From Dipteronia dyeriana (lineage: Eukaryota; Streptophyta; Magnoliopsida; Sapindales; Sapindaceae): 64,000 nucleotides of DNA. The translations under genes and the position numbers were made by a program. Below are positions 18,244 through 58,340 of the stretch, piece after piece. The stretch's first letter is position 1; each line of letters opens with the position of its first letter. The notes beneath the pieces were generated by a model. It was not told where the DNA came from. It was given only the letters and a program-made list of their open reading frames with translations, and made no database searches. The stretch lies in assembly GCA_032871835.1 (NCBI GenBank), contig CM065301.1:76664069-76728068 (forward strand), in the 5' to 3' direction.

Positions 18244-18296
18244 TCAAGAAAGTTTGGGTCAAGAAAGTTTGGGTCAAGAAAAACACAACACAATGT

Positions 18297-19550
18297 TTGG
18301 TTGCACAATATGCTTTAAGAGCTAATTCATCCTATTGTTGGTACCTAGACAGCGGTTGCTCTAGGAATATGACCGGTAACAAGGAATTCTTTAAGAATCT
18401 TGTTATGAATGATGGTGGATGGGTTACATTTGGTGATGGCACCGAAAAGCAAGTTCTAGGCAAGGGAACAATTTGCATCCCCGGATTGCCTAAACTTCGT
18501 GACACCTTGTATGTAGATGGTCTACAAACTAATTTAATAAGCATCACTCACTTGTGTGAAATTTTTTAAGAAGTTAGCTTTAACAATGATATGTGCACGA
18601 TAATTGATAAAAGGAGCAAAATTGTTTTGAAAGTCAAAAGGTCTTCGGACAATTGCTATTGTTTAGAGGTTGATCCACTAACATGCAATATGGCACATGT
18701 GTGCAACAAGCTTGAATTATGGCATGAAAGATTGGGCCACATGAATTATAAAGATTTAAAGAAGCTTGAGAAATATAACATTGTTAGAGGTATTCCTAGT
18801 CTTGGTAAAAATCTTGATGGTGTTTGTGAACCTTGTCAATTAGGTAAACAAACAAAAGTGTCTCATAAAACGAACACTAATTTTGCTACCAAGAAGCCCT
18901 TAGAACTTGTGCATATGGACCTAATGGGACCAATTCAAACCGAAAGCATAAATGGCAAGAAATACATTTTTGTATGTGTTGATGATTTTTCTCGGTTTGC
19001 TTGGGTATATTTTCTTAGGGACAAGACTGAAACTCTTGGTTACTTTAAGAAATTTTGTAACCAAGTTCAAAATGAAAAAGATCTTGGAATTAAGAAAATA
19101 TGTCGCATTAGGAGTGATCATGGGAGCGAATTTGAAAATGCTAGATTTAGTGAGTTTTGTGATGATTATGGGATTTCACATGAGTTCTCGGCTCCTAGAA
19201 CTCCTCAACAAAATGGTATTGTTGAGAGGAAGAATCGTGTCTTGCAAGAGATAACAAGGGTCATGCTCAATAGCAATAAAGTCCCTAGAAATCTTTGGGC
19301 CGAAGTGGTCAATACCGCATGCTGTGTCACTAATAGAGTTTTTAGAAGGTCCGGCACAAAACAAACCTCCTATGAACTTTGGAAGGGCAAGAAGCCCAAT
19401 GTGAGTTACTTCCACACTTTTGGTAGTAAGTGTTTTATTTTGAATGATAGAGATCACTTAGGAAAGTTTGATGCTAAAAGTGATATTGGTCTCTTTCTTG
19501 GGTATGCTAATAATAGTCGTGCATATAGAGTGTTCAACTTGAAAACTTAG
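18297..19550 (+). pseudogene. Sirevirus protease and integrase, near intact
   Basis: The protease active site is in WYLDSGCS (18340-18363). One stop at 18567-18569 separates it from the integrase. The integrase keeps the HHCC zinc region (WHERLGH.., CEPCQLGK), the first Asp in CVDDFSRF, the second in RSDHGSEF, and the Glu in QNGIVERKNR. All three catalytic residues are present. Integrase joins element DNA to the chromosome. It ends at the stop at 19548-19550 and RT follows. Confidence 0.85.
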
Positions 19551-19556
19551 ACTATT

Positions 19557-21437
19557 ATGGAGTCTATTAGTGTGAAAATAGATGATCTTAGCATGCTTGA
19601 TTTGTGTGATAATAATGGTGTCAATGAATCTAAAGAACATTTGTTGAATGACACTAAAGCACCTATTGATGTGACTAGTTGTGATGAAAGTGAATCTAGT
19701 CATAATGATGAAAATGGTAGTGTTGCTAGAGAAGAAAGTCAAGAGTTAGAAAATGGTTTGAATGATGACCAACAAGATGTTGGAAATTTTAATTCTAGAC
19801 TTAGGAACATGCATTACCAACAAGACATCATAGCTGATTTGAATGAAGGGATTAGAACTAGAAGGCAACTAGCTAACCAAATTTCATATGCTTGCTACAC
19901 TTCTCAAATTGAGCCCAATAATATTAATGAAGCAATTATTGACGAATATTGGGTTAATGTCATGCAAGAAGAATTAAATCAATTTGAGAGGAATAAAGTA
20001 TGGTCATTGGTTCATAGACCAAAAGATATCAATGTGATTGGTACAAAATGGGTGTTTAGGAATAAGACCGATGAATGTGGCAAGATTGTGAGAAATAAAG
20101 CAAGACTAGTGGCTCAAGGGTACACTCAAGTTGAGGGTGTAGACTTTGATGAGACTTTTGTACCCCTTGCACGTCTTGAGTCCATTAGACTTTTGTTGTC
20201 CATTGCATGTCTTAAGAAATTCTAATTGTTTCAAATGGATGTCAAAAGTGCTTTTCTCAATGGATACCTTCAAGAAGAAGTGTAAGTTGAACAACCTAAG
20301 GGTTTTGTAGACCCACACTCTCCTAATCATGTGTTTAAGTTGAAAAAGGCTCTTTATGGCCTTAAGCAAGCCTTTAGAGCTTGGTATGATAGGTTGACTC
20401 AATATCTTATTGACAACCAATAAAGGAGAGGTGGTATTGATAGAACATTATTTGTCAAGCATTATAACAATGACATTTTTGTTGCAAAAATATATGTTGA
20501 TGATATAGTGTTTGGGTCTACATGTAAAACCAAGGTTGATGATTTTGTGAATGTGATGTCAAGAGAATTTGAAATGAGTACGGTAGGTGAACTTAATTAC
20601 TTTCTAGGCATGCAAGTGAAATAATCTAGCAATGGTATCATGTTGTCTCAATCTAAGTATACTAGAAATCTTGTTAAGAAATTTGGTCTTGAAAGTGGAA
20701 AAGAATTTGAAACACCTATGAGTACAACATTAAAACTTGACAAAGATGAAAAAGGAAAAAATGTTGATCAAAGTCTCTATAGGAGCATGATAGGTAGCCT
20801 TCTCTACCTAACGGCTAGTAGGCCGGATAATTGTTTTAGTGTAGGTTTGTGTGCTAGGTTTCAAGCTAATCCAAAAGAATCTCACTTGAAAGCCGTTAAA
20901 AGAATCATTAGGTATATAAAAGGAACACATAATCTTGGTTTATTCTATTCCTTTGATACTAATGATATTCTTGTTGGCTATTGTGATGCGGATTGGGCAG
21001 GAAACATTGATGATCGTAAAAGCACATCAGGCTGTTGCTTTTACTTTGGGAATAATTTGATTGATTGGCTAAGCAAGAAACAAAATTCTGTCTCTCTTTC
21101 ATAATTCGAAGCCGAGTACATTGTGGCCGGAAGTGCTTGCACACAACTTCTATGGATGAAACAAATTCTCAAGGATTATGAGATAAATCAAGGTAAAATG
21201 ACTCTCTATTGTGATAATATGAATGCCATTAATATCTCTAAAAATCTGGTTCAACACTCACGCATAGAGCATATAGATAGTAGGTATCATTTCATTAGAG
21301 AACTTGTTGAACATTCAATAGTAACTCTTAAACATATGCCTACTAAGAATCAACTTGCGGACTTGTTCACAAAGCTTTTGGACAAAGAGAAATTTGTATC
21401 TCTTAGAAGATCCATTGGCATGATTTGTGTTGATTAA
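19557..21437 (+). pseudogene. Sirevirus reverse transcriptase and RNase H, with stops
   Basis: The RT domain starts at GTKWVFRNK (about 20041) with ARLVAQGYTQ and FDETFVPLARLE. The catalytic YVDD box (20493-20504) is intact. In-frame stops fall at about 20223, 20281, 20420, 20622 and 21102. RNase H shows YCDADWAG, FEAEY and YCDN with the needed acids, then the HIDSRYHFIREL tail. Several stops fit single transitions. The 5' part (19557-20000) is the acidic linker between integrase and RT. Confidence 0.85.
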
Positions 21438-22214
21438 TGCTTGTGTGTGGTTATGAGTGGCTTGATAAGCAAAACTATATTGTATATCTATTTCTTTGAG
21501 ATCTACTCATGCGAGAAGTAATGATCTTGATGAAATAGCTTTTATTGCTTCTAGATCATGAACTTAAGTCTTTGTAAATCTTGTTTTTAAAAAATGCACA
21601 ATTGCTTCTCTTATATGTTTAAGTTTAACTAATTGAGTTTGAAAGCATGTAGATTATGGATGCATCTTAAAGTTCATTGTCTAGTACATGATAGATGACC
21701 TATGGTTAGTATTCATTTTGCTTCGGCATCTACATAGAACTCAACGAGCACCTTCATGGAAAGGGCTACACACCTTGGTTGTGAAGTCGCCCAATGTAGG
21801 AAAGGGCTCTACACCATTGTGATGAGTGAAAGCCATCATGAAGAGAATATGTTTATGTTAGAAAAAATCAAAGAAGTGTTGAAAAAGAATCAATAAAAGA
21901 AAGATCTTTGACTCAAAGCCTAAAAAGAAATGGAGGAAAACTTAAAATGGAGTATAGTTAAAAATTGTGATTGCTCGGGTTGAAAAACATAAATGGAATG
22001 ACAAACCACATGCACACACACGCTCACATGTTGAAATCAATTCTCTTTAAAGCAAAAAAAAAAACGGATGATAATCGGTTTGACCTTGATTGGAAAAGCT
22101 TTATATGGATAGATGTTGAAATAGTTTGCATGTTGATATCACAATAACTTATTTTATATATGCTTGAAGGATTTTTCACACACACATTTTTGCATAATGT
22201 GCTTGATTTATTAG
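21438..22214. other. Sirevirus 3' non-coding spacer
   Basis: There is no envelope-like ORF, though some Sireviruses have one here. A short direct repeat, GGAAAGGGCT.CACACC, occurs near 21760 and 21802. Otherwise I see nothing. Confidence 0.55.
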
Positions 22215-22923
22215 CAATGAGAGATTATTTTTTAGAGAATAATAAAAATCAATGATTCTCTTGTTAACTCTGAAAAATAATGGTTTACTATCTTTTATTG
22301 CTTGAAATGTGTGATTGTGTGAGTCCTATGTGAACAAGTTAACATGCTTATTAATATGTGGAACATATGTTAAGGGGGAGCTTAGTTTGTTAAACTTAGT
22401 TCTCTATACAACTTGTTTGCTCACTGCCTCATGATTTCATTGTGCATCTCTTATACCCTTGTTGGCATTTTTAATTGGCATTTATCTCTCTCTAGGTTGT
22501 GTATTATGTTTTATCTATTCCTTGTCAAAAGGGGGAGAAAGTGTTTCCTCACCATGTTACATGCTTTTGTTATAAAGGGGAGACAATCCCTTAAGGGGGA
22601 TAAATTTTGTCTTAAAGGGGAGAAAGTAAGGGGGAGAAAATTTGTGTTTGCATGAGATAATAAGTGTTAAGGGATATTTTGTTTGGTATTTGTATATTGT
22701 TTGTTTATCTCACCTATCTTCTTTGTAGAAGATTTCTTTTGGTTGTTCTTGTCTCACAGGTGCTTTGAATGTGTGAAGATGTTCTTAAAGGCTCATGAAG
22801 ACATTTTAGTCTAGGAATATCTCTTTGTAATGTGAGGATGTGAGAATGCAATCAACATTGATTATGAGAGATCTTTGTATGGTGAGGTAGAGGTTTTGTC
22901 ATGGTATAGCCAAAGGGGGAGAT
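22215..22923 (+). other. Multiple polypurine tracts before Sirevirus 3' LTR
   Basis: At least six AAGGGGGAG-like tracts (near 22371, 22528, 22577, 22592, 22612 and 22911) precede the 3' LTR; the last directly abuts it. Repeated polypurine tracts are a known Sirevirus trait and prime plus-strand synthesis. Confidence 0.8.
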
Positions 22924-25111
22924 TATTAGGTTCTAGATTTGTGTTAGCTTGATTCGATAACAAAACTTCATTTCTTTGTAATGCTTAGTTCCTTAAGTGG
23001 TTCGTGATGATAAGAGCTTCAAGGAAGAAAAGCAACTTCTCATGATGCAAAGTTCGTCTTCAAGAGGATTGGTACTATTCTTGGATGCTAAGGATTTTGA
23101 GATCCTTCTTCCTCTTGCAAGGAGTAGGTGCACACACACACAATTCATTCATATGTGTCCCTGCTTAGTTGTGCATCATTATATGCGCAAACACACACAA
23201 TTGATATATTTGTGTCCCTACATCATAGTGCATCATTTGGTATAACACATTCACACACTTGAAGTTGAATGCTCATGCATTGGTATGAAAGTAGCATGTT
23301 TTGGAAAATGTATGATTGGAGACTATCTCTATGTAGTTTGCATTCTAGTGTGAAATATGTTTGTTTGTTTATATGTTTGTATAACATGGACCTTGAACTT
23401 GATTTTAGTCTTCAATTTTTCATGATTGAGATCCGGTCATTTCGGTTACTCATTCTATTGATTTCAAGTTCTAAGTCAAAAGAACTACACTTTCAACTCA
23501 TGTTGCATACATTGTCTTCGTCTTCATATTTCTAGTCGAATTCTTATTTTTTGGGTTAAGTATCTTATATGTCCATGTCCGTGAGGGATTCTCAGTTTTT
23601 AATCTTCAAACGGATTCAAATTCGGAGTTCGGAGGCCAAAGAACGGTCGAAGAACGTGAGCAGAGGGCAAGGGGTAAGGTGTGATGGCTTAAGCCATCAC
23701 CATGCACCAACCCGAGATGGGGCGTGGCCATCTTGGCCACAAGAGTGCTCTGCCCCAAGATGCTCACATGCCAAATCGGGGAGACACTAAGGAAGAAGGG
23801 AAAAAATGTCTTTTTGGCTTTTCACTCTTTAAAACCTCTCATTCCCTCTCATTTCATAAGATAAGAACAAGTTGAGAAATTGAAGAACAAGTGCAGAATT
23901 TTTCTCTCAACATTTTGATTTTTGTTTTTGTGATAACTTCTTCATTTCTACTCCGAATCACTTGATTAAAAAACCGATTTCTAGTGTCTTAAAGATTTCT
24001 ACAAACCCCAAGCATTTCTAGAACCAAATTATGTCTACATATTTTGTTGTGATCTGATCTTCAGTTCGTGATTGCATCCTTGTTGGTAAAATCATCTTCT
24101 TCTTTGTTCTCTTCTTAGATCTTCTTATTGATTGATGTTATTTGATTAAGAAGCATGACTAGGATGATTTTGATATCATTTTATGGTTTGTTGATTTGAT
24201 TTTTAAGTTTAGCTAGATTTGTGATATATTGAATGATTTATGCTAAACTTGATAAACATGGAATTGTTTCTAGAAATCCTTTGTTCTTATGCTTGATTAA
24301 TTGTTTCTAGATCTAATTTCATTTTCTAAGAACTAGGTTTTGTTTCAATTGATGTCTATTTCTTCATATCTATTTTCGTAGTTGATAACATGCTTAAGTT
24401 GTCTAGATGCATTTGTGATTGATCTTTGAAAGCATAATCTAGTCATCTAGTTGCATGTCCATAGAATTTGTTGATCATCATTTTCTATGTTGAGTGCTTG
24501 TCTGCGTTTTGAATTCATGATCACTTAGATGCATTGTGAAGAGGTGGAAAATCTCATATCTTAGAGTGATTCTTTGATTTGAGCATTTGTAAGTCTTAGC
24601 TAGAGTCGAGAGGACTTGGATAGCTAAGCAAGTGGAAGTCTTGACAATAGGTGTGAGACCTCGGATTGTTGAGCAAGGAAGTCTTGACAAGAGGTGTGAA
24701 ACCTCGGATTGTCGAGCAAGGAAGTCTTGCTTAGGGTCGGGAGGATCCGGATAGGTGAGCAAGAAATTTTCCTAGAGACAGGGGGTCTTGGATAGGAAGT
24801 CGGCTTATTAGATCACTAGGTTCAAGATAAAGTGAGAGTGAGAGTTCGTAGAGCATGTGTGATTGCTTGAGTGTGTAACTCTATTTGAAATAGTGGATTT
24901 GCTTCTGCCGGTAGTTGTGGTATCAACCCGTGAATGTTTCCTCTTTGGAGGTTTTACCACGTAAATATTGTGTGTCATTGTTTGCAATTTTCATTAAGCA
25001 TTGTTAGAATTGCATTGTTTTTATAAGAAGATAAAAATTGGAACATATACCTATTCACCCCCCCCCCCCCCCTCTAGGTATATTCACACTATAAAGATCA
25101 AGGGAATTTCA
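22924..25111 (+). repeat. Sirevirus 3' LTR
   Basis: It is homologous to 14822-17062. The first dinucleotide is TA instead of TG (G-to-A). It ends AATTTCA at 25111, followed at once by Tat LTR sequence. Its C run (25061-25072) is shorter than that of the 5' LTR. Confidence 0.88.
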
Positions 25112-25898
25112 AAATCTACACTACCCCGGCTACCTCCCAGGAATTTCTACAGGAACACCTCGAGCCTCTAAGCGTCAGGGAAAATCCATCTCAAGCTTCT
25201 AAGAACATAGTCGAAGCAGAGATCTACCTTGCTCTACGGGGCAACAGGCAGCTAGATGGGCGACCTCCATGAAAAACCATGCCGAGATAACATACAAGAT
25301 CATATCTAGGAGATAACCACCATTAATCCCGTATACGTACGAGCCAAGAGTTTGATTCCAAAAAGGAAACAAACTCATTCACGTTAATTGTTTTCGCTAT
25401 TTACTCGGGGTGAACAACTTTTAAATAAAAGATCCCGCCCGATAAGGAGGAAACGGATTCAAAGGATCATGGCGAGATATCAGCAAATTCAAACCAACTT
25501 GGAACATATATAAATATGGCCAATCAGGATACAGAGAAAAGAGACAGAAAAAAAAAACATAGAGAGATAGAAACAGAGAGAAAAGAAAAAGAAAAGAAAA
25601 GGGGAAGGTCTAAATTCTGTATTCAGAACACGGCCACCTTTGTTTCCACTATTCGACAGGCACGGAGTTGCCACCATCCTAGATCTTAAAGAGATTGCGA
25701 GCATATAAGAGAGTGATTTGTATTTTAAAGCAGATATCAATAATAAAAGCTTCCATTTACTGTTACTACGATCTAGCCTTTCGTTTACCTCTTAACAGGT
25801 TAGGTATCAACGGTACCGACCCCGGCCACCACTTTCGTGGGAGTGGTCTCGAGTGTGTTAGTAGGAATTTCTCATCCCGAGCAAATTTCCCGTTAACA
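25112..25898 (+). repeat. Tat 3' LTR, 5'-truncated
   Basis: It aligns with 1048-1800 of the 5' LTR, including the closing GAGCAAATTT..GTTAACA. The first 370 bp of this LTR are missing at the Sirevirus junction. It is followed by the CCAAG target duplication. Confidence 0.9.
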
Positions 25899-25903
25899 CC
25901 AAG

Positions 25904-26442: not shown

Positions 26443-29321
26443 TGACACCCAAGTATAAGAGTGTCATAGTAATAAATTAACCGGTAAGACTGGGTCGAAC
26501 CACAGGGAGGTTGTTCACTTGTCCTTGTAGAATTAATTACCTAGATTAATTACTAAGCTTGTTATAAAATATAAATCAATTAATATTAAAACTATGGCTA
26601 AGGGATCCACTGTTGGTAATTCAAATATGATCTAATTATTAATGTTTAGTCCAGATTAATGGGAGGGTATTCCACTCCACTGACCACTCTCTGATAGATA
26701 TGAGTAAAGTATCCAATGTGCCAAGTAATATTTGTCTGTCTACAGTGAGTCAAAAACTCCATAAAAATTGGAGGTTTTCAAAAATTGGATCATATTTTTC
26801 ATACCATTAGTATCACATTTGACCCCAATATATTAAATTAGCCATACATAATATTACTAGAAAATAACTATTTTACTCAAACTGAGAATTTGAGAACATT
26901 AGAGAGAGAATTTCACAAATCTAAGATCAGATTTGGATTCAGTATGCCCAAATTAGGGGGGTGGGGGAAGTCCCATATTTATATAAAATATGGATGAAAA
27001 TTGACGAATAAATTTAGAATGGAGCATCTAGATTTTACCACGTGGCGAGCTCAGATTGGGTCGACCAAAGAAAAGTAAGCAGTCTTCTAGAATGTGATTC
27101 CCGACAGTCGCGTGAATGGTGCACTCGCAATTCAGCCTAATAGAAATGGGCCACATCATCAGTCAACAATGTTCTAGAATGTCAACTGTGAACAATGCAC
27201 AAACTTCTAGAATGTGATTCTCTACAGTACGTGTATAGTGCACACGCAATGCGGCTCAATAGAAATGTGACACGTCATTAGTGAACAGTGAATAATTAAA
27301 ATTACAAAAATACCTTTCATGGTCTTCCTAAGGTTTTTAATGTTCTGAACTTGAAAATAAGGTTTGTTTTGTCATCTGACTTCTCCATAATTCTAAATTG
27401 ATCATATGACATCTGAAATACAAAGAAAAATAAATTGATTACTACACATTACAGTTATTTAATCGAACGAACGAAAATACGTCAAAATTAGGGAATTAAT
27501 CATATTGGAAGTGTAAAATAATGATATTATTGTTGGGATTATGCTCGAAAGCAAGAGTGTAATATTGTATTTGACAATATTTTCATATTAATAAAGTGAT
27601 TTCTAGTTTAACAAATCTTATAGCATTTATAGTTTAATTATTATAATTGTCAAAAGTAAATAATCATAAGGTCAAAAGACTATGAGAAAAGAAGAATTGT
27701 TCATACATCTAGATATGTATGAGATAGACACAATTCTTTAGTTATTCTTGAATAATATTCATAACTTAAGATGAAAGGTTAGGCGCTTTTATCTTGTTAA
27801 AGTTGTCGATTCTTTTGCTAGCATTTGAGTGGGATCAAATGTGTTATGATGAGTTTAAAATCATCAAAGTGTGGTGTCTTTGGGTAAAAGAATCTAGTGC
27901 ATTGAATAAGATCACAATGAAATACTTTATCTAGAACCGTCAATGGATAAAAGTTTTCATTTGAAGACAATCGGATAGTCTATCTCAATCTTGAGATAAA
28001 TGATGGACTTATGGTTGCAAGTATTATCATTTGAGCTATCAATGAGTACGATTATATAACATAGTCTATCCTTGATAGTTTGGTGGTATTCATTTGTTAA
28101 TCGATAGAGGACTTCATTTATAGATATGGACATCGTGGCTCCATTTATTAAATGAGAGTAGAATATCATCATATGATGTTTTGAGGTATTGGATATTAAA
28201 TCTTAACGTTAAGTTTTCAATAGTGTCTATTGAAACATGGTTTCTGGACAAGTCAAAATATCCAAGTTCAAAATGTGGTCATATGAGTAAATATGGTAAC
28301 TTAAAGAGCTATAGGCGGCTAAAAGCTCTTGGCGATTACTGGTATTCTTCACGATGATACATTTTCTCCAATAAGGTTGTCTAGGGTATGAATGAGTAAT
28401 TATCAACTTATTCTATCTTTATTTAAGAGTTTAATTTTAGTTCTTTAGTGGAATGAACTAAAATTAAATAGATCGGACATAATTGAATCATTTGTTGATT
28501 GTGATTGGGTTGGGTCTATTGGAGCTTAAATCTAGATAGCCCGCCAAGATCCTCAATCCACAGGAACTTGGATGGATCACTTGATATATTCTACTAGACC
28601 AATTTAGGGGTTCATCTAGAATTGTATTGAGGCATGTTGACTTGTTTTTTTTTGTAAGAATGGGTCTAGTTCACATGTGGATTTTTTTTTATATAAAAGT
28701 CAAATGGATTTAATAAAATAAGAAAATAATATATTGGCCTATATATATGAGTTGGGCGGTAAGGCTATTTAGAATAGCTTAATTATATTATTTTATTTTA
28801 TTATTTAATTATATGAAAATTAATTAATTTGGTGATTAATTAATTATTTAATTAAAAGTCAAAATCTTTTTCCTAGTAGGAGATGGTCTTCTAAAATTAT
28901 ACTATTGTTGGTAGTATAATTAATATTAAAGACTATATTTGATAAGTAGATAAATAAAAGTAAGTAGATAAATAAAAGGAATTATTTATCTAATCAAATT
29001 AGGAAGTCTTTAATATGGTTACAAATACACTATTGAGTTGGATTAGGAGTCTTGGTGTAGGATAGAATTCCTTTTTTAAAAGAATTCTTAACCACCAAGT
29101 AAATCCACCTAAGGAAATGATTTTTAACTACTAAGTAAATCCTTCTTAGGAAAAGATTAAGTCTCCTAATTGAATTCTATAGAAATTTCGGTCAGCCCAT
29201 ATATATATATATATAAGGATAGAATTCCTTTTAGATAATAATTCTTAACTACCAAATAAATACACCTAATGAAAGAATTCTTACCAACCAAGTAAATCCT
29301 TATTGGGAGAGGATTTAAGAT

Positions 29322-29373
<52 letters not shown>

Positions 29374-30040
29374 AGGAAATTCGGCCAACCCTAAGGTTTT
29401 CTATGAGAGGAATTTCGATCATGCTAAGCAATTTTCAAGAAGAGAATTTGGCCTAGCAAGAGAGAATTTTGAGGAAGAAAATTTTAGTTTTTGCTCTAGA
29501 CAAAATTTGATCAACTCATAGACATAGGGTGTAGAATTCGGCCAAGGAGAAGAGAGAAAAATAGAACGTTTTTGTTTTCGATAGTACACTATTATCCTTT
29601 ACATCAAAAGGGTTTTGCGTACAAAATCAAATTGGGTTCACGTAGGTTTCAATCAATTGGATTGATAATTCACAAGTGACCGGACGTTCTTTGATTCTTC
29701 TCTTGGAGGTTAATTGTAACTAACAAAGAAAACGATTTTGTTTGTTTCCATCCTCAGGTATACAATTAAAAGAGAGGGAGCCCACACTCCTAGATGATTC
29801 ATGTTCGAGATTGGATTGGAAGATCTTGCAGATTCAATTCGGCGCTTGTTCAATCGTCACGAGAAAAATGTACGACATTTTTTATATATACATCAATTAA
29901 TCTAGGGTTAAGGTTCTTGTTATTTAAAAGGGAAATTTTTTATTTATACGAAACCCTAATTTATATTAAATTTTCTCACGCTTCCGTTGCGCAGGTTTTA
30001 TTTTCCCTACAATTATCCCTTAGTAAACATACACTTTTCA
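26443..30040 (-). repeat. Athila 3' LTR (left copy) with nested solo LTR
   Basis: It matches 46791 onward, then 57569 onward, up to CTTTTCA. About 1.1 kb remains once the copia solo LTR at 27531-30011 is removed. A G-rich run near 26957 matches the longer G runs of the right copy. Confidence 0.85.
27531..30011 (+). mobile_element. Ty1/copia solo LTR in Athila LTR
   Basis: A 2481-bp block begins TGTTGGGATT and ends TTCCCTACA. It is flanked by perfect 5-bp repeats ATTAT (27526-27530 and 30012-30016). Athila LTR sequence continues on both sides. The end phrase CTTCCGTTGCGCAGG is typical just before the 3' end of long copia LTRs. Two (TA)n microsatellites lie near 29200 and 29322-29370. No coding sequence is present; small frames such as 29303-29521 follow the TA repeat. 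Confidence 0.88.
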
Positions 30041-30062
30041 AAGTTATCACACCCCCAACCAG
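30041..30062 (-). other. Athila polypurine tract
   Basis: On the minus strand GGTTGGGGGTGTGATAACTT directly precedes the 3' LTR. GGGGGTGTGATA-like tracts are usual at this point in Athila elements. Confidence 0.6.
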
Positions 30063-31322: not shown

Positions 31323-31975
31323 TTACAAACTGAGATTCAAATCAATTCTACATTTCTTGTTGTCTTCATCAATGGACCAATCTATTTTGGAGGTTGAGGG
31401 ATCTGACTCATAATTAAAAGCTTGTAACTGGTCAATCAGCTCATGAGGACTTGAAGCAGACATAAATATTTTTCGAATTGAAGGTGGAATGTAATAATTT
31501 TTCTGAGCATGATCAAGAAATGAAATCAAACCATCATAAATTTATTAACATTCAACAAACCGATGAGTTTCTCATGGATGTGTAATTGCGCCCATTATGC
31601 CATTATAAAGATTTCTTCTAAGGTTCCAAAACCACCTTGCAAAACTATAAATGCATCAGCATGATGTACCATTGTAGTCGGTCTTTTAGGCATACCTGAA
31701 CCAACTAGCTCTTCGCCGTTTGTCTTTTCGATGATGTCTGCTGCGACCATAGGTTTTGGGACAATACCTAGAACTTAACTACCTCTGTCTCGTGCAGCTC
31801 GTGAAACACACCCTATTAATCCCAAGTTACCTCCTCTATACACTATTTGTATTTCCCGCTCAGCCAAAACCTTACCAAGATAAGTTGCAGCCTCAACAAA
31901 CTCTTTGTATTTCCTATAATTAGTGACACCAAACACACAAATGTTTGTGAATCGTTTAGTCGAAGGTGACGTCAT
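31323..31975 (-). pseudogene. LOG-like cytokinin phosphoribohydrolase copy inside Athila
   Basis: LOG enzymes release active cytokinin bases from their riboside monophosphates in the cytosol. From ATG 31973-31975 the frame shows ICVFGVTNYRKYKEF (first Rossmann strand), YRGGNLGLIG (family YGGGxxGLMG), LGIVPKPM, HADAFIVLQGGFGTLEE (family PGGxGTxxE, here Pro to Gln), WAQLHIHEK and GLLNV, then SFLDHAQ to a C-terminal IDLNLSL. Breaks are a TAA at 31775-31777, a TAA at 31595-31597 and a one-base deletion near 31547. Total length is about 218 codons, normal for plant LOGs. Plant LOG genes usually have several introns; none is seen. The Arg of the R-K-AEM region is present but its neighbours differ (KRPTTM). 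It is inactive now. Confidence 0.82.
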
Positions 31976-32047
31976 TAATGCACCCTCTGAATTTTTCTTT
32001 TGAATGGTTATGAGTGCTTTGAAGCAAAAAAGGAAAACAAATGCTTG

Positions 32048-32055
32048 TATTTATA
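32048..32055 (-). promoter_or_regulatory. TATA-box-like site upstream of LOG-like copy
   Basis: On the minus strand TCTATAAATACAAGC lies about 75 bases before the ATG of the LOG-like frame, with a short leader between. This is the spacing of a plant core promoter. It may have come with the captured gene. No transcript evidence exists here. Confidence 0.4.
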
Positions 32056-32339
32056 GATCCCGAAAAGGTAACACAATGATATAGCTATATGTATAGGGGG
32101 TGCAGTTGTCAATGATATTAGATCCAAATGGTTCAAAAATCATAAGTAAACAACAATAAATGTAAAAGACATTAAATGCAGAAGGAAAAAGATAATAAAA
32201 ACAAAAAAAATATTTACTGGTAGTTGTGATTGTGGCTCACATCTTTCTTTGGTTGTACGTCCAGTAACGGCTTCAACGCTCTCTATGGGTCGAGGATATA
32301 CTTCTCATCCAGTTTTCTTATAAATTGGCATCATGGTCT

Positions 32340-32830
32340 TTTAAAGTCAAATTTCTAAGACTATATTATGCATGTTCTTTTTGAAATTGTGGCCATAGTC
32401 GGTCAATTGTCATTTGCACATATCCACTAGGATGTGCATCAAGAGTCATTAGGATATTATCCAATGACTCCCTACGCAAACCATTCTTAATGAATAAACT
32501 TTTATCTTTCCGATTATTAGACATCATTCCTAAAGAACGACAACGTGTGTCGCGAGTTTTACGTGCACATTTGTGACAAGTAATGCCTAACTTCTTAGCT
32601 CTTCATTTTCTTGCAAGGTTACTTCTTCTAAAACCATACATGTAAGACATAAATGAATCAGCAGACTCACCTACTAGACGTACCTTAACTTCGATCAACC
32701 AGCGAATATCAGCAGGAATGTTGTACATTATCAGTAAGCGTAATCTTTCGGACCATGCTTTGTAAATATTTTTTAGAGCATTTTGGGGCAACGATGAAAA
32801 ATGTTGTCACAGGTTTGTGAAATTTTGTCC
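32340..32830 (-). pseudogene. Unrecognised ORF with CxxC motif, Athila env-like position
   Basis: A minus-strand frame begins near 32815, encodes ALKNIYKAWSERLRLL and DSFMSYMYGFRRSNLARK, meets a TGA at 32603-32605, then continues in frame through RAKKLGITCHKCARKTRDT, a basic stretch, and DRLWPQFQKEHA to a stop near 32363. It is rich in Lys and Arg, with a CHKC pair but no clear second zinc pair. It lies between integrase and the LOG-like copy. I do not recognise it. It could be a diverged envelope-position ORF or part of a second captured host gene. Confidence 0.45.
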
Positions 32831-33018
32831 ATGCCTTGTTTTGGAGAATCTGAATTAAACCGACTTGAATTGTCACGGAGTACCGTTATCCACCACTTAA
32901 CCGGGGTTATATAGCAAAACACACCAAGTAAAAAATTAAACCTAGAAATTAATCCTACAAAAATTCAAGACGTAAAAGCGAACAAAAACAAAAATAATAA
33001 TTGCAAACATAAATAAAG

Positions 33019-34253
33019 TCAAAAGTAAGAGATTTGTTTACTCACTGTTGTAACAAGGGTCAGAAAGGATGGCAGAGTCTTTTTAAAATCTATATTTTCT
33101 AAGAATGGTTTCACACGTTGTTCGTTTACTTTAAACACATTACCATTCCTACGATTCTCAATGTCAAGGGCACCATATGGATACACATGTTTCACAACTA
33201 ATGGACCACTCCACTTTGATTTCAATTTGTCAGGAAATAAATGAAGTTGAGAATTATAAAGCAAAACCTTTTGACCAACTTCAAATGATCTTCTTAAAAT
33301 TTGTTTGTCATGAAAGGTTTTAGATTTTTCTTTAAGAATTTTTGCATTTTCATATACATTATTTTTAATTCTTCAAGTTCCTTTATTTACAACTTGCACA
33401 ATTCACCAACATCATTTAGGTAGAATTAAAAGCTTTAATGGCCCAATATGCTTTTTTTTCTCAAGTTCAACAGGTAAGTGGCAAGGTTTTCTATAAACTA
33501 AACAATAAAGAGACAGACCGAAAGATGTTTTGAATGAAGTGCGGTAAGCCAAAGTGCATCATTTAGTCTAAGAGACCAATCTCTTTTATTAGGGTTAACC
33601 GTTTTTTGCAAGATCTGTTTTATCTCCCTATTCGCTAACTCAACTTGACCACTTGTTTGAGAGTGGTATGATATGGCAATTTTGTGTGTGACTCCATATT
33701 TCTTTATTGAAGACTCAAAGGGTATGTTACAAAAGTATTTGCCACCATCACTGACAATGGCTCGAGGGATACCAAATCGACTCAAAAGATTTTCCTTTTA
33801 AAACTTAATCATTGTTTTGTGATCATTATTTCGACAAGGAATTACCTCAACCCATTTTGACACATAATCAATGGCAACCAAAATGTACAAAAATCCAAAT
33901 GACGAAGGAAATGGACCCATAAAATCAATTCCCCAACAATCAAATATTTCAATGACAAGAATGAGATTTAAAGACATCATGTTTCGCTTGAAAATGGATC
34001 CTAATTCTTGACAATTTTCACAGGTTTTATAAAATGCATGTGCGTCTTTAAACAAGGTGGGACAATAAAATCCAGACTGTAAGATTTTTGCAGTCGTTTT
34101 CTTTAACAAAAAATGACCACCACATGATTTAGAATGATAAAATTTAATAACAATACTTACCTCATTGCCTGGAATACACCATCGAACGATTTGATCTGGA
34201 TAATCCTTGAATAAGTACAGGTCATCCCAGTAAAAACATTTTACCTCGGTCAA
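33019..34253 (-). pseudogene. Athila integrase
   Basis: On the minus strand the zinc region (FYHSKSCGGH.., CENCQ) is followed by the first Asp in WGIDFMGPF (near 33930), a stop at 33798-33800, the second Asp in IVSDGGKYF (near 33745) and the Glu in [12 protein letters not shown] (near 33640). All catalytic residues are present. Frame breaks at about 33795, 33495 and 33300 split it. The C-terminal DNA-binding part (GQKVLLYNSQLHLFPDKLKSKW reads across 33270-33190) ends near 33019. Confidence 0.85.
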
Positions 34254-34277
34254 AAATTTCTTCTTGTTCTGTGCATT

Positions 34278-34697
34278 TCAATCGAGTGACATCATTCTTG
34301 TTGCACGATAATTAACAATGTTAGCATACCAAGGCATAGTTGTGATAGAGAATAAAATATCATCAGGAAAATAATCATTGATGGGTGCTTTATCAAATGA
34401 TGACTCAGCGGTGAGTCGTGATAAATGGTTTGCAATGACATTTTCAACACCCTTTTTGTCCTTGATTGTGAGATTGAATTCTTGTAATGACAAAATCCAG
34501 CGAATCAGTCTTGGCTTTGCATCCTGTTTAGATATTAAATACTTCAAAGCAGCTTGATCAGTAAAAACAATGGATGAAGCGTCAATCAAGTATGACCGAA
34601 ATTTATCCAATGCAAATATCACAGCAAGTAATTCATTCTCAGTGGTGGTGTTATTCATTTGTGCACAATTCAAAATCTTACTTGCGTAATAAATCAC
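34278..34697 (-). pseudogene. Athila RNase H domain
   Basis: The frame shows YYASKILN, TTTENELLAVIFALDKFR and IVFTDQAALKYL, then VIANHLSRL, the usual gypsy RNase H signature lying between RT and integrase. The leading part (34700-34800) is in other frames. RNase H removes the RNA template during DNA synthesis. Confidence 0.82.
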
Positions 34698-35950
34698 AAA
34701 AGGCTTACCTTCTCTTTTTTATCCTAAAACAGCTCTAACAGCAAAATAACTCGCATCACACATCAATTCAAAGGAAAGGACCAATCAGGGGATTGTATAA
34801 TAGGAACACATGTTAAAAGGTCAATTATCTTTTTAAAAGACTCTTGACAAGCATTCAAATTTTACATCTTTTAATAAGAGGTTACAAAATGGTTTAGATA
34901 TGACACTGAAATCTTTAATAAACCTCCTATAAAATCTTGCATGTCCTAAAAATGACCGAACATCTTTGACTGATTGTGGTGGTAGTAACTTTGAAATGAC
35001 TTAAATTTTTGTCTTATCAACCTCGATTCCTTTTGATGACATAACATGACCCAAAACAATTCCAAACGTGGTCATATAATGACACTTTTCCTAGTTAAGT
35101 ACAAGTACTTTTTCTATGCAACATTTCAAGACTCTTTCCAAGTTATTAAGACAATCATCAAAAGAATTCCTAAACACAGTTAAATCATCCATGAAGACCT
35201 TTAATCAATGTTCAATCATGTCACTAAAAATGCTTAGCATGCATCGTTGAAATGTGGCTGAAGCATTACATAAACCAAATGGCATTCTTCTAAATGCAAA
35301 GGTTCCAAATGGACATGTGAAAGTGGTTTTTTCTTGGTCTTGTAATGCAATAAGAATTTGATAGTATCCTGAATACCTATCAAGAAAGCAGTAGTAAGGA
35401 TGTCCTGCTACACTTTCTAAAATCTGGTCAAGGAATGGAAGGGGAAAATGATCGTTTCTATTGGCATCATTTAATTTTCTATAATCAATGCACATGCGCC
35501 AACTAGATGAAACACGAGTTGGAATTAACTCACCCTTTTCATTTTTAACAACAGTGATTCCAGATTTTTTGACACAACTTGTGTAGGACTCACCCACTTA
35601 CTATCAGAGATATGGTATATAATTCTCACATCAAGTAATTTAAGGACTTCAGTCTTGACAACTTCTTTCATGTGTGAGTTAAGTTTTTTTTTGGGTTGTC
35701 GATATGTTTTAGCATTTTCCTCTAAATTTATTCGATATAAACAAATCAAAGGATTAATTCCTTTCAAATCTTTCGGAGTCCAACCAATTACATTCTTATT
35801 TTTATTTAAAACATGTAACAACTTACCTTCTTGTTCTTTTGTGAGGTTAGAAGAGATTATCACTGGGTAGGTCTGCTCGTCTCCAAGGTACGTATATTTG
35901 AGTCCTTTTGGTAATGGCTTCAAATCCAGTTAAGGTGCTTTTTCTTCTGG
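34698..35950 (-). pseudogene. Athila reverse transcriptase
   Basis: The minus-strand frame from 35923 (PLPKGLKYTYLGDEQTYPV) leads into the RT domain: WRMCIDYRKLNDANRNDHFPL near 35490, DRYSGYYQI, and RMPFGLCNASATFQRCM. A stop at 35205-35207 comes just before the catalytic FMDD box (35184-35195), which is itself intact. The thumb and connection continue to 34800 with further stops and shifts. FMDD rather than YVDD is normal for Athila. Confidence 0.85.
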
Positions 35951-36316: not shown

Positions 36317-37468
36317 TTATGTTTTCAAGATAATAAAATCTACTGGGAAGATAAATTTATCGACTTGTACTAACACATCTTCCACTATTCCTTTTGATAT
36401 TTTAACTGACCTATCAGCAAGATAAAGTGTGGTTGAAGTCGGTTTTAACTCACCAAGTTTAAGTTGCTGATAAACTGAGTATGGGAGCAAATTTACACGA
36501 GCACCTAGGTCAAGTAAAACATGATCAATTTTACAGTCACCAATTATACAGGAAATAGTGGGACAACCAGGATCTTTATATTTCAAAACATTTTTGTTGG
36601 AAAGAATGGAACTTACCAGTTCAACCATAAATGCCTTCTTTCTTACCTGATGCTTCCTTTTCACAGTGCACAGATCCTTCAAAAATTTGGCATAGGAAGG
36701 TACATGTTTGATCACGTCCAACAAAGGAATATTGATCTTTACCTGTTTGAAAATTTCAAAAATCTCTAGAGTATGTTTCAATTTCTGTGAATTTTTCAAA
36801 GCCTGAGGATATGAGAGTATATGTGGGGATTCAATTATTTCTTCGTCAACAGCGGTTTCATCAACCCCTTCCTTACCCTTGGAAAATGACTCATCATCAT
36901 TTTTATCAGATTCAAGAATAGGTTTTTTGATGACCGTACCACTACGAAGAGTGATAATTGATTTGACTTGGTCTGGGCATTGGTTATTATCATAGGAACT
37001 TGACTGACTCTTGGGATTTGGTTGTGGTTGAGATGGAAACTTACCTTTTTCGTATATGGTGAGTGTAGAAGCAATATTTGCCAAAGTATCTTTAACATTT
37101 GCCAAGGCTTGTATAGCTTGGTTGTTAATGGCTTCTTGTTTCTCAATGAATGAGTACAAAGTGTCTTCAAGGTTTTTCCTAGATGGTGGGACATAAGGTG
37201 CATAACCTTGAGGGTTTTGGAAATTCTGGTGTGGTTGTGAAGACTGGGCTTGATAATTGTTTCTCCAACTAAAGTTTGAGTGATTTCTCCAACCAGGATT
37301 GTAGGTTTGTGAGTACGGGGTTGGAGTTTGGCTTGTTGAAAGTGTGCAAAGCATTGACTTGTTCATAAAGGCAATCTTTTAAGGCTGGTAAGTTGGGCAA
37401 CTATGAGTGATATGATCATCAGAATCACATGCATAGCATGCAATTTCTTGTACAGATTTTACATGTTC
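36317..37468 (-). pseudogene. Athila gag C-terminus and protease
   Basis: The knuckle-like CYACDSDDHITHSC lies at about 37395-37440. After a stop near 37378 a 349-codon frame runs from 37366. It has an Asn/Gln/Pro-rich NPGWRNHSNFSW linker, a coiled stretch, INIPLLDVIKHVPSYAKFLKDL, and the protease core with DLG (36503-36511) in LLDLGARVNLLP. Athila proteases use DLG, so the catalytic Asp is kept. It ends at a stop at 36317-36319. The linker to RT (35950-36316) is broken. Confidence 0.82.
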
Positions 37469-39501: not shown

Positions 39502-40248
39502 TTTTATTTTCTAACGATTCAACTTTCCTAGCTAGGGATGCAAATCTAGCTTGAAGGTCATGATCTTCCCTAAGATTGTAAATGCCTCCACTAGATGAAG
39601 ATGGTTGTGGTTTGCTCATGGACTCATAGGAACCAATGGTGTCTCAATTTTGAGCATTTTCAGCGATATGGTCAAGGTAGTCAAGTGCTTCTTTAGGATT
39701 TTTGTCCATGAACTCCCTATTACGCATCATCTCAATGACTTGTCTACTTTATGGTGTAAGTCCCTCGTAGAAATATGACACTATTCTTTATGTTTCAAAA
39801 CCATAATATGGACAAATATTTAACAACTCTTTGAACTTATCCAAATATTGGTAAAGTGCTTCCCTAGGTTTTTGGGTAAATGAAGTGATTTGCGTCTTAA
39901 GAGAGTTAGTTATATGAGGTGGGAAAAATTTCTTTAAGAATTGTTGTTGCATGTCATTCCAAGTTCGGATTGATCATGACCTAAGGTTTTGTAACGAAGT
40001 TTTAGCTTTATATTTTAAGGAAAAAAAGAAAAGCTTAAGCCTGATTATATCCATGTTAACATTTTGGTCAGTGCAAGTGTTACAGACTTCCTCGAACTCC
40101 CTAAGATGCAAATATGGGTTTTCAGATTCAAGACCGTGAAAATTGGGTAAAAGTTGAATGATTCCCGGTTTAAAATTAAAGTGTGATGCATTTGGTGGGA
40201 AAGCTATGCATGAAGGTGCTTCAGTGCGTGTGGGGTTCATGTAGTCAT
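39502..40248 (-). pseudogene. Athila gag capsid region
   Basis: On the minus strand FHGLESENPYLHLREFEEVCNT opens the retrotransposon gag domain, followed by LKLFFFSLKYKAKTSLQNLR, a stop at 39971-39973, QFLKKFFPPHITN and PREALYQYLDKFKELL. It has four in-frame stops. A predicted coiled coil (ARFASLARKVESLENKK) ends at the solo LTR. The first 47 or so codons lie beyond the DNA transposons at 46202-46343. Confidence 0.82.
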
Positions 40249-41171
40249 TAAGGGTGAGTTTGGTACGGACATGAGACAGGACAAGGTGGGACGGGATGGG
40301 TATTTTTGGGTTCGGGTTGGGTTGGGTTGAAAATTTTCCAACTCGATCATATTTTGGGTTCAAAAAAGTCAACCCAACCCAACCCAATATTTTTCGGGTT
40401 GAGTAGCATCGGGTTGATCGGGTTGATCGGGTTAAGACATATGTAAACAAAAATCAATTCCGTAAAAATTACATCACACGTCAACAGAAATATTATTTAT
40501 TACATCTATCAATTACACTAATTAACGTCAAATATTAAAATAAAAAATTAAAGAGTCCATCAATTTTTTATTTTTAATAGCACAAAGTATTAAAAGCCAC
40601 TAAAAGGCAAGTAGGAAACAACATCAAAAGAGGAGCCCACAAGATAGCAGCAGTGCAACGCCACTAACTCATTAAGAGCTTTGAAACACACAACAAGTCA
40701 ATAGTAATAATATTACATCTTTAAATATAATTCAAATATCTCTTATGCTTTAACATAAAATTAAACTTAAAATAAATTCAAATGTTTAATTTAATAACAC
40801 AAACAAGAAAAAACATGGACAAATAACACATAATTTCAAATTTCTTCTTGAGCTTGATCCAAGCATTTTTCTGTGAGCCTCATCCAAGCAATTTCTCATT
40901 AATTCCTATCGATAAAAAAAAAGCCAAAAAAAATACTCAAAAGTATCAAAACACTTTTCTTTCTTTTATTTACATCCAACATGTATGGTAAAAAAAAATC
41001 TATAAAGAAATGAAGTGAATAAAATAATTACCTTCTAAAATAGGATGTCAACCTACAACCATATCATCAGAGGAAGTAGTCATTCCAATCTCTATTTAAA
41101 TTGAAAAACTAGTATTATTAAAGAAAAAAAATTATACATTACACATAATTATATAAAAACAAATTAATAGT

Positions 41172-43219
41172 TTACCATTTTCAAGTGCTTCATAAAATTC
41201 CATCTCATCCGTGGATGGTGCAACACCAAAACATGTATTATAAGATTGCAGTCAATTTTGCAAACAATTCAATATCTCCACCATCTTTGGAGATAAGGAA
41301 CTCCTGAATGGATCAAGAACAAGGCCTCCAGTACTAACCGCGGACTCAGAAGCCACTGTAGACACGGGAATGGCAAAGATATCCTTTGCAATTCAAGATA
41401 GAATCTTGTACTTCGAACAATTAACTTTCCACCAATTCAAGAGGTCAAAGCTATCATTATCTATATTTTCATCGGACTCGATCAAATACCTCTCCACCTC
41501 ATTTTTTAAATCAACAAAATCTTTCTTCTCTTTCATTTTTTTAAACTTCTTAAGTCTTTCCAAGTGAAAATCCACATTTTCATTAACCTTTCCCATATCA
41601 CCCTCATTTTCCAAAGGAATTGACCTAGAAACTTGATCACTACTTGAAATGTTATCAACTTCATTGTAAAACTCGTAAAGTTTAATCAAAAGCTCCTTAA
41701 TATCATAAGTCATCTCATTTACCTTATTTTCATCAAACAAATCACCAAAATAAAATTTAACATAATCCAACTTGTATCTCGGATCAAGAACAAGTGCAAT
41801 TATCAACAATTTATTGACATCCTCAAATTTGCCCCAATAATTGTCAAACTTAGATTTCATAGCAACCGTCGTTTCACACAACAAAAAATCTCCACTGTTA
41901 GCCAATGTACTCAACTCAGTTGCAATGGAACACAACTCATGAAAAAACATATTGGAAGTAACAGATAAGGAAGCACTAAATTTTAATGTGATGTCATAAA
42001 AAACATGCAAAAATTGGACAAACACTTTAGCATTACCCCAATCATCATCCTTCGGTGGTCCTACTCTTTTCTTCCCACTGTCAAGTTCAGAAAAACATAA
42101 ACCATAACGTCCATCGTCCTCCAATAACCTATCAAATGCTTTTTGAAATTTTAAAGCAGTAGATAACATCAAGATTTTGGAATTCCATCTGGTTGGCACA
42201 TCTAAAACCACAATGCTTTGACTCTCAATTCTTTTATGCTCAATACAATTTCTAAATTTTTGAAGTCTTGAGGGTGAAGATCTTACATATTGTACTGCAT
42301 TGCGAATACGAATAATAGAATCATTCATATCTTTCAATCCCTCAGACACAATTAAATTAATTATATGAGCACAACATCTCACATGTAAAAAATTCCCACC
42401 TAACACAAGCTTAGATTCATTCCAATTTTTCATCTTCCTTTTAACATAATCTATAGCCACTTTATTGGCAGAGGCATTGTCAACCATTATTGTAAGCACT
42501 TTCTCAATCCCCCACTCAAGTAAACATGACTCGATGATTTTTCCAATGGTCTCCCCATTATGGTCTGGAATCATACCAAAACTCAATATTCTTTTATACA
42601 ACTTCCATTCACAATCAATAAAATGGGAAGTGATGACCATATAATTGATATTTTGAATGGAAGTCCACATGTCGGTGGTTAAGCAAACTCTTGGTGAATT
42701 TTTAATGAAATACTTTTTGAGTTTAAGTTTTTCATCCACATAAAGTTGATAAATATCCCTAGCCAATGTTCTTCTAGAGGGAGGAGTAAACCTTGGACAA
42801 GCAACTCTACAAAAATCTCTAAACCCATCTTTCTCAACAAAAGAAAAAGGCAATTCATCCACAATAATCATCCTAGTACAAGCCTATCTACATGCTTCCT
42901 TGTCAAAACCAATGGCCACAAGATTTGATTTAACAATTTTTATTTCATTACCACAATCTAAATTATTATTTGACGTCCCCATGGTTAAGACTTTTTGTTT
43001 TTTATCCTCCGATGCCATTACACATTTATACTTTGTACATTGACTCTCTATATGATTCCATAAAGAAGTAGTGCCGCAAGATTTACTAGAGCAAGCATAA
43101 TCTTTACCACAATAATTACACTTACATTTAGAGCCGTCACCATACTTGGTGAATAATAACCACACGTTTGATGGACCCTTTTTCGGTCTTCCTCTTTTCA
43201 CACCAATGTTTGAAGGCAA
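41172..43219 (-). pseudogene. hAT transposase, three premature stops
   Basis: A single minus-strand frame from ATG 43217-43219 holds a BED zinc finger (CKCNYCGKDY.. with H and C in LWNHIESQC), the RNase H-like core with catalytic Asp in CLTTDMWTS and in IMVDNASAN, then RCCAHIINLIV, WNSKILML, and the C-terminal dimerisation region (FDLLNWW.., IPVSTVASESAVSTGG). Stops occur at 42884-42886 (TAG), 41393-41395 (TGA, fits CGA to TGA) and near 41247 (TGA, fits TGG to TGA). Otherwise it is collinear with plant RICESLEEPER-type transposases (about 680 codons), so decay is recent. Confidence 0.85.
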
Positions 43220-46343: not shown

Positions 46344-46790
46344 GTTATTGATGAATGTGAGTGATTATGATCTCCTAATTAATCTACCACTAGATGTTCG
46401 AGACCAGCGTCTCATGCAAGTTTAATGAGGGTTCATAGAGGTGAAATACACAAAATGAAGAAAATAAAAAAGTGATGAAAATAACTAGGATGCAAAATTC
46501 TAAGGGTGTAAATGCAAATATATACAAGTGTTGGGGTAAAAATACAAATACCTATAAATCTAGGGTCTAAAGTGAAATATGAGAGATAGGGGATTGATCT
46601 GCAAAAATAAAAAGTAAAATGACCTATATGGAAATACAAACTTGATCTACGCTAAAATGCAAAACTGAATACAAAATGAGAACAAAGAAGATTAAATAGA
46701 AAAAAGTAGTAAAACTAAAATAAAATTAAAAAGAAATTAACTCTACAAAAAAAACGTGGACTTACCTCTTCGGCAGTGGCGCCAAAAACT
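46344..46790 (-). other. Athila 5' leader and primer-binding site
   Basis: The leader is non-coding. On the minus strand TTTTTGGCGCCACTGCCG (46771-46788) sits just inside the LTR. It resembles the TGGCGCCGTTGCCGG primer site of Athila and Tat elements. Confidence 0.75.
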
Positions 46791-47824
46791 TGACACGCTT
46801 TAAAGAAGTATTCATACTCCCAAGTATAAGAGTGTTATAGTAATAAATTAACCGGTAAGACCAGATCGAACCTCAGGGAGGTTGTTCACTTGTCCTTGTA
46901 GAATTAATTATCTAGATTAATTATTAAGCTTGATATAAAATACAAATCAATTAATATTAAAACTAAGGTTAAGGTATCCACTATTGGTAATTCGAATATG
47001 ATCCAATTATTAATGTTTAGTCCAGATTAATGGGAGGTTATTCCACTCCACTGACCACTCTCTGATAGATATGGGTAAAGTACCCACTGTGCCAAATAAT
47101 ATCTGTCTATCTACAGTGGGTCAAAAACTCCATAAAAGTCAAAGGGTAGAAGACAAAAAAATAATAATAAATTTACCAAAATTGGATCATATTTTTCATA
47201 ACAATAGTATCACCTTTGACCCCAGCCATATTAAATTAGCCGGACATAATTTAACTAAAAAATAACTATTTTTATTTAAATTAAGAATTTGAGAACATTA
47301 GTGAGAGAATTTCACAAATCTAAAGTCAAATTTGAATTCAAGATGTCCAAATTCGTTGGGGGGGGGGGGGGGGGGGGGGGGGGGGAGGTCCCCTATTTAT
47401 ACAAAATACGGATGAAAATTAACTATCGAATTAATTTAGAATGGAGTTTCCAGATTTTACCACATGGCGTGCTCAGATTGGGTCGACCAAAGATAGGTAA
47501 GCAGTCTTCTAGAATATGATTTCCCGCAGTCGCGTGTACGGTGCACTCGCAATTCAACCCAAAAGAAATGTACCACGTCATTAGTGAACAGTCTTCTAGA
47601 ATGTAAACTGTAAAAAGTGCACCGACTTCTAGAATGTGATTCCCTACAGTACGTGTATAATGCACTCGCAATGTGGCCCAATAGAAATGTGCCACGTCAT
47701 CAGTGAACATTGAAAGTTAACTGTGAACAGTGAATAGTCAAAATTACAAAAATGTCTTTTATGGCATTCCTAGGGTTTTTTACGTTCTGAACTTGAAAAT
47801 GAGGTCTGTTTTACCATATAACTT

Positions 47825-57563: not shown

Positions 57564-57737
57564 AACTTCTCCATAATTCTGAATTGATCATATGACCTCT
57601 GAAATATTAAGAAAAATACATTGATTACTATACAACACATTTATTTAAGCGAGCGAACAAAAATATGTCTAAATTGAGGAATTAATCATATTGGAAGTGT
57701 AAAATGATGATATTATCCTTTAGTAAACATACACTTG

Positions 57738-58340
57738 GGGGGGGGGGTGAGGTCCCCTATTTATACGAAATACAGATGAAAATTGACTATCGAATTGAGC
57801 GTCCAGATTTTACCACATGGAGCGCTCAGATTGGGTCGACCAAAGGTAAGTAAGCAGTCTTCTAGAATATGATTCCCCGCAGTCGCGTGTACGATGCATT
57901 GGCAATTCAACCAAATAGAAATGTACCACGTCATTAGTCATCAGTCTTCTAGAATGTAAACTGTGAACAGTACACCGACTTCTAGAATGTGATTCCCTAC
58001 AGCACGTGTATAGTGCAATCGCAATGCGGCCCAATAGAAATGTGTCACGTCACTAGTGAACATTGAAAGTCAAATGTGAACAGTGAATAGTTAAAATTAC
58101 AAATGTCTTTTGTGGTCTTTCTATGGTTTTTTTACGTTCTGAACTTGAAAATGAGGTCTGTTTTGCCATCTAACTTCTCCATAATTCTGAATTGATCATA
58201 TGATCTCTGAAATATTAAGAAAAATACATTGATTACTCCACAACACATTTATTTAAGCAAGCGGACAAAAATATGTCTAAATTGAGGAATTAATCATATT
58301 GGAAGTGTAAAATGATCCCTTAGTAAACATACACTTTTCA
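57738..58340 (-). repeat. Tandem duplicate of Athila LTR end, with empty copia site
   Basis: It repeats, without the copia insertion, the segment from the G run at 47359 to the LTR end. The junction is AAACATACACTT followed at once by ten G. It includes the uninterrupted sequence CATCTAACTTCTCCATAATTC, which is the copia target. Confidence 0.85.

Follow-up and report, generated by a model that had tools for sequence, protein, structure and literature searches.

The stretch of DNA analyzed here, 64,000 nucleotides from Dipteronia dyeriana (hereafter the window), contains a degraded member of an Athila-like Ty3/gypsy family that is abundant. Read along the minus strand, the internal order of the element is gag, protease, reverse transcriptase, RNase H, integrase, a cysteine-rich ORF (CRP), a LOG gene and the 3' LTR. 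The LOG copy (31323..31975, minus strand) begins at 31975 with MTSPSTKRFTNICVF..., is interrupted by stops at 31777-31775 and 31597-31595 and by a frame change near 31540, and closes with a terminal stop at 31325-31323. Translation bears out the earlier note, which had recognized an intron-free LOG sequence with two stops and one frameshift, lying in the sense of gag-pol and downstream of integrase. The motif PGGxGTxxE is replaced in this copy by QGGFGTLEE. The first unbroken piece of the frame (31775-32050) matches the Pfam LOG-fold family LDcluster4 weakly (E=1.8e-4, under the family cut-off); less broken relatives match the fold well, the Dipteronia protein P0003 aligning to the Arabidopsis LOG3 structure 2a33 with E=4e-47. 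The segment is a genuine LOG family member and not an unrelated fold. The window copy is the more worn, with a mean difference of 8.5% from 20 copies fetched from the genome, compared to 4.9% among those 20.

Upstream of the two accessory genes, and likewise on the minus strand, lie integrase (33019..34277, three open pieces; the H2C2 and rve core by Pfam, the C-terminal tail named by eye), and an RNase H domain (34278..34718) and a reverse transcriptase piece (RVT_1, 35205..35597), both located by domain scan. They are followed by the end of gag together with the protease region (36317..37378; the protease match is weak, E=0.2), which has a 42-residue stretch, 57% identical, in common with a Xanthoceras LOG gene model, and by a piece at 39974..40453 that we take to be gag from its motifs. 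The 3' LTR begins at about 30049 and its first part spans 30012..30049, with a polypurine tract just before it (about 30050-30060); the remainder (26450..27530) is set apart by some 2.5 kb of inserted sequence (27531-30011), as judged from an alignment gap. The 5' LTR consists of an inner part (46791..47824) and an outer part (57564..58340) severed by a copia insertion, and the primer-binding site (46760..46784), which resembles the end of tRNA-Asp, is followed by a splice-donor-like GAGGTAAGT; the LTR parts and the primer-binding site, too, are on the minus strand. In the Pfam scan RVT_1, RT_RNaseH, H2C2 and rve follow one another on the minus strand, which is the Ty3/gypsy order; the name Athila for the carrier is our assumption from motifs and the primer site. 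Neither a chromodomain nor an archaeal-type RNase H was found in the scanned window ORFs, which are broken and incomplete; the latter marks the Tat lineage, according to PMC6317226.

Several further elements occupy the window. A copia-like element (47825-57563, by eye, plus strand; ORFs at 51584-55353) sits inside the Athila 5' LTR, with end repeats that are 89% identical and AACTT at both flanks, and a hAT-like transposase ORF of 496 aa (41393-43234, minus strand, by eye) lies with a BED-like ORF in the 5' part of the element. Another copia-like element (14109-25112, by eye) is bounded by two repeats, each about 2.9 kb long, that are 95% identical. Positions 1048-1801 are similar to 25112-25899, and 10147-10847 is a tandem array (99-bp unit, 7.1 copies, 91% matches). 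A search against Rfam gave no matches at the gathering threshold.

The second accessory ORF, CRP, is related to Viral_NABP/Carla_C4 and lies at 32283..32847 on the minus strand, its ends being approximate and set by offset from other copies. In the window it is broken; a 78-aa open piece (32369-32602) has no Pfam match of its own. Elsewhere it runs between integrase and LOG (LOG-872 to LOG-308) and encodes about 182 aa, up to 188 aa; among 20 copies it is unbroken in two, L022 and L026, and is partly duplicated in L022. Athila4 and Calypso elements carry an envelope-like ORF between pol and the 3' LTR, and here too extra sense genes stand in that interval, but they are CRP and LOG: no other ORF of at least 75 aa recurs between pol and the 3' LTR in the copies, and the two fill the place. 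The earlier note had set LOG where an envelope-like ORF is expected; CRP, between integrase and LOG, had been overlooked.

Three Dipteronia CRP ORFs compared directly to the viral families score under the cut-off (E 0.0015-0.011), about equal to their scores against ScfRs (E 0.00088-0.035), an unrelated bacterial regulator family. The relationship emerges from their relatives. A protein search found 329; all 120 listed carry Carla_C4 (PF01623), many also Viral_NABP (PF05515), and the names among them include Xanthoceras, Acer, Populus, Rhamnella and Citrus. Of 12 that were scanned, all match PF01623 (E up to 0.1) and 10 match PF05515 (best 3.5e-8); P0130, picked up by a Dipteronia ORF with 72% identity, reaches 31.7 bits with PF05515, whose cut-off is 23. 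Through these relatives CRP is linked, at the level of sequence profiles, to the viral nucleic-acid-binding families PF05515 and PF01623. Carlavirus-type proteins of these families likewise have a Cys-rich motif after a basic stretch, and the relatives exceed the profile cut-off; CRP differs in its length of about 182 aa, in long N- and C-terminal parts outside the match and in being encoded by an LTR element. An AlphaFold model of CRP has a mean pLDDT of 65.8 and was not used for a fold search; the CRP profile met only one chance-level hit in the PDB (E=0.45). Scans of IMG/VR with the LOG protein and with CRP and LOG alignments found no relatives, and the open PMC literature on PF01623 and PF05515 gave no paper linking these families to transposons.

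A search of the 914-Mb genome of D. dyeriana (Sapindaceae) with the LOG segment yielded 967 first-look candidates. All 40 that were scored cover nearly the whole 653-base gene at 91-100% identity, which excludes a chance match and shows that the segment is not confined to the window copy with a target duplication of its own. Twenty matches were taken as 10-kb stretches (excluding the match of the window itself and the final 19 of the list), and between them these occupy every one of the nine large contigs, C1-C9. The alignment of LOG with its near flanks (-264 to +786) is colinear with a reference copy, L010, in 19/19 other fetched copies, and LOG-1014 and LOG+1836 align with L010 in 17 of the 19. 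The LTR of L010 starts at LOG+1866 and ends at about LOG+3132; across the copies examined LTR length is about 1.3-2.2 kb. The three inspected copies having two outer LTR ends (L014, L016 and L017) have LTRs of the form TG...CA and 5-bp target duplications (GTGTA, TCAGG and GTAGG, respectively), a trait of LTR elements generally. The genome thus holds a family of many copies sharing LOG and the element, as the earlier note had proposed to look for. Kimura divergence between paired LTRs is 0.083 in L017 and 0.059 in L014, which at assumed rates would represent about 2-6 million years.

A protein search with P0030, aimed at finding a second LOG family, gave 1,048 candidates. The best 150 were scored, and all are near full length, with identities of 57-63%; as far as can be told they belong to the same LOG family. 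LOG, travelling with the element, has reached at least 150 scored places. By hand count, 51 of these 150 best-scored matches are stop-free, and a further search found the full 261-residue open frame in 19 of 150 scored matches. The LOG frame is open from about codon 8 to the end in 8 of the 20 fetched copies, so that the suggestion that other copies might carry LOG intact holds over almost the full frame; six of these eight have an ATG start, one has GTG instead, and one has a frame change before codon 8.

The catalytic residues R99 and E122 are kept in all eight open Dipteronia copies, and the PGGxGTxxE motif has its second residue changed from Gly to Cys in one of them. Among 108 other listed relatives, one of which is a further Dipteronia model, R99 is kept in 103 and E122 in 105, figures that somewhat overstate conservation, the relatives having been length-filtered and taken in order of their similarity to an unbroken query. 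The prenyl-group pocket is formed by Met96, His97, Lys100, Glu125 and Trp129, as given in PMC4979012. M96 and W129 are kept in 8/8 open Dipteronia copies, and H97, K100 and E125 are changed in 8/8; among the 108 other listed hits K100 is retained in four, E125 in four and H97 in 15. All six Xanthoceras rows taken keep every active-site residue compared. The simplest reading of these residues is that the element LOG is a nucleotide phosphoribohydrolase, perhaps with an altered preference for cytokinin nucleotides. In the Citrus element LOGs E122 is replaced by Ala in 5/5 and R99 is changed in 3/5, and that protein may have been kept as a pseudoenzyme. PGDLAT(L/F)EA stands in place of PGGxGTxxE in the Citrus models P0122, P0124, P0127 and P0128.

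A search with integrase gave 1,065 candidates and 40 matches; the window and five matches already in the LOG list were dropped, and the first 20 of the remaining 34 were used. Four of the 20 stretches lack a readable LOG site, and the 16 readable ones comprise eight with full-length LOG, one truncated and seven deleted, in a sample biased against LOG by removal of the five. The seven fall under three deletions (-210/+507 in four, -156/+608 in two and -242/+716 in one), two of which leave the LOG tail standing; all three start downstream of the CRP end, and the fetched stretches stop short of CRP. None of the 16 readable stretches has an ancestral empty site. Copies devoid of LOG do exist, but all seven carry deletions; the earlier note had named empty sites in other full copies as a refutation. 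In L014, L017 and L027 most of gag-pol is gone and the CRP and LOG regions are kept, with stops; a gag piece is joined to the integrase tail in what looks like one shared junction, and the three are non-autonomous derivatives. Copies therefore amplify without LOG, presumably by using the proteins of other copies.

Similar arrangements are present in other plants. A search limited to long proteins gave nine hits, including gene models that fuse pol and LOG: reverse transcriptase, H2C2, rve and LOG in P0124 (Citrus sinensis); rve, Carla_C4 and LOG in P0125 (Primulina eburnea, Lamiales); reverse transcriptase, RNase H, CRP and LOG in P0128 (Citrus); and RNase H followed by LOG in P0127 (Citrus). 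CRP is joined directly to LOG in P0202 and P0206 (Citrus). The complete order integrase-CRP-LOG is thus found in one model, that of Primulina, and Citrus supplies overlapping parts. Identity to the window integrase is 64% (Citrus) and 53% (Primulina), and CRP identity to P0130 is 62% and 53%, respectively. Other models may be annotation joins: LOG stands ahead of gag in P0122, is joined to unrelated genes in P0121 and P0123 and to a copia piece in P0126 (Cuscuta), and P0129, a protein that lacks pol domains, matches at 33%. Metagenome contigs hold many intron-free LOGs of about 217 aa (one cluster has 205 members) as well as CRPs (one cluster of 566), some of the LOGs bearing the general family name TIGR00730; these contigs are probably plant DNA, and their LOG rows were read as proteins alone.

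The absence of introns bears on the origin of LOG. In twelve host-type LOG exon matches the alignment starts at query residues 12-15, the site of an intron, whereas element matches begin at residues 1-3 and read through it. The host genes L049-L053 have introns at five sites in the aligned part, and the element copies cross all five in one frame; the element LOG lacks introns at the five sites checked. A tree was built from 32 rows, a 33rd (a piece of P0001) having been removed beforehand; Primulina was not among them. The nine host-type rows (six Dipteronia genes, two from Arabidopsis and one bacterial, on a long branch) are split from the 23 element-type rows at 98/94, and this split favors a single old capture. 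AU tests of four host branches as the source of LOG gave p=0.062-0.189, none being rejected. Plant LOGs such as Arabidopsis LOG3 (PDB 2a33) and LOG8 (1ydh) belong to the same sequence family and have PGGxGTxxE and the catalytic Arg and Glu; the element LOG differs in being intron-free, in the changes at H97, K100 and E125 in Dipteronia and in grouping apart from the sampled host LOGs.

Shared variants by codon position number 38/28/31 for LOG (30 copies), 26/24/21 for CRP (20 copies) and 26/41/24 for integrase (15 copies), compared to 35/47/41 in a noncoding stretch (35 copies). By this test selection on LOG within this genome is not shown; the test has no power here, since integrase, necessarily once under selection, shows none either. 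Stop-free copies (34-40%) are rarer than the 47-64% predicted by a neutral-decay simulation before indels, and because their share is no higher than under neutral decay nothing here favors selection since insertion. The case for a LOG function would rest on the frames that stay open, and the catalytic residues that are retained, in plants distant from one another. With respect to expression, a TATA-like TCTATAAATA lies about 80 bases upstream of the LOG start in 11 of 12 copies examined, and in the three copies that show the pattern the primer-binding site is followed by the donor-like GAGGTAAGT, the site being mutated in L014; an own promoter and a spliced leader are both possible.

LOG might instead be a neutral passenger, a processed copy that a source element picked up a single time and has replicated since without use to it; the neutral-looking variation, the share of broken copies, the three different deletions (two of them in several copies each) and the loss of the catalytic Glu in Citrus speak for this. 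Yet open 217-aa frames with catalytic residues, at about 57-64% identity among Dipteronia, Populus and metagenome proteins, would be hard to retain unselected, and the similar gene order in Citrus and Primulina also argues against a passenger, which we consider unlikely. The notion that LOG and CRP together are a nested insertion or an assembly artefact of one copy draws on the several nested insertions that the window does contain, but it is rejected on the genome-wide matches and the colinear flanks on contigs C1-C9, and related gene models in other plants speak against it as well; its probability is negligible.

A further possibility is repeated capture of LOG, Xanthoceras, where the canonical pocket (H97, K100 and E125 in 6/6 rows) is retained, being one candidate for a separate event; an AU test leaves a grouping of Xanthoceras with host LOGs standing (p=0.14). 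The best tree nevertheless places the Xanthoceras rows among the other element LOGs (98/94), and the Xanthoceras LOG gene model holds a piece of the same polyprotein, so that repeated capture has perhaps one chance in a handful of being correct. LOG is most likely an old, optional accessory gene encoding a putative nucleotide phosphoribohydrolase. We suggest that a spliced plant LOG mRNA was taken up long ago by the element and would since have been passed down, as an accessory gene, within a lineage of elements now found in Sapindales, probably Malpighiales and Lamiales. While the element is expressed, the LOG protein would hydrolyze nucleoside 5'-monophosphates, either cytokinin nucleotides or, given the altered pocket, a different nucleotide; CRP would bind nucleic acid; and the two together might benefit the element in host cells that are dividing, much as viruses profit from their accessory genes. 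Single copies can amplify without LOG. Taken as a whole, and with the predicted roles of the proteins included, we hold this old capture of an accessory gene to be probable.

That LOG occurs in such LTR elements is already known, contrary to the earlier note, which knew of no Athila-type element with a LOG gene. The abstract of Steinbauerova et al. 2011 is said to describe two Athila-like elements similar to LOGL4. PMC9289625 reports that LTR-retrotransposon consensuses of Citrus sinensis, C. clementina and, with the filter off, Populus trichocarpa include a LOG (YgdH) domain, in agreement with a 2011 survey that it cites; the Populus carrier is known here from that report. Those elements are likewise Gypsy-type with a LOG-family extra domain; Dipteronia adds another genus, at least 150 scored copies, CRP, the pocket changes and the subfamilies, and the main-text section of PMC9289625 on LOG mentions no nucleic-acid-binding gene of the CRP kind. 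The same source describes Phalaenopsis Gypsy elements carrying an AlkB-type RNA demethylase with activity tested in vitro, likewise a host-type enzyme as accessory gene, although enzyme and lineage are unrelated. Beyond what is in print, CRP, the order pol-CRP-LOG, the pocket changes, the wide spread and the LOG-less and pol-less subfamilies look new: the CRP partner, gene order, pocket changes and derivative subfamilies were not found in the open PMC literature, nor in passages of PMC7264820, PMC6317226, PMC12596083 and PMC11593424, though this does not prove that they are undescribed.

In plant LTR retrotransposons it is rare for an accessory gene to have a recognizable function. A bolder proposal, which we advance tentatively and think somewhat less probable than its converse, is that an old and widespread eudicot LTR lineage carries a two-gene module, a virus-type nucleic-acid-binding protein and a LOG hydrolase with a reshaped pocket, that might have been kept for tens of millions of years for altering host defense and the hormone or nucleotide state to the advantage of the element. 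The idea lends itself to testing: the fold of the enzyme has been solved, assays are available and several plant genomes contain copies. A caution for annotators is that 'LOG' or 'LOGL10' models lacking introns may, in Populus, Citrus and Sapindaceae, be transposon genes. If true, the CRP and LOG module would form a connection between retrotransposons, plant RNA viruses and cytokinin biology.
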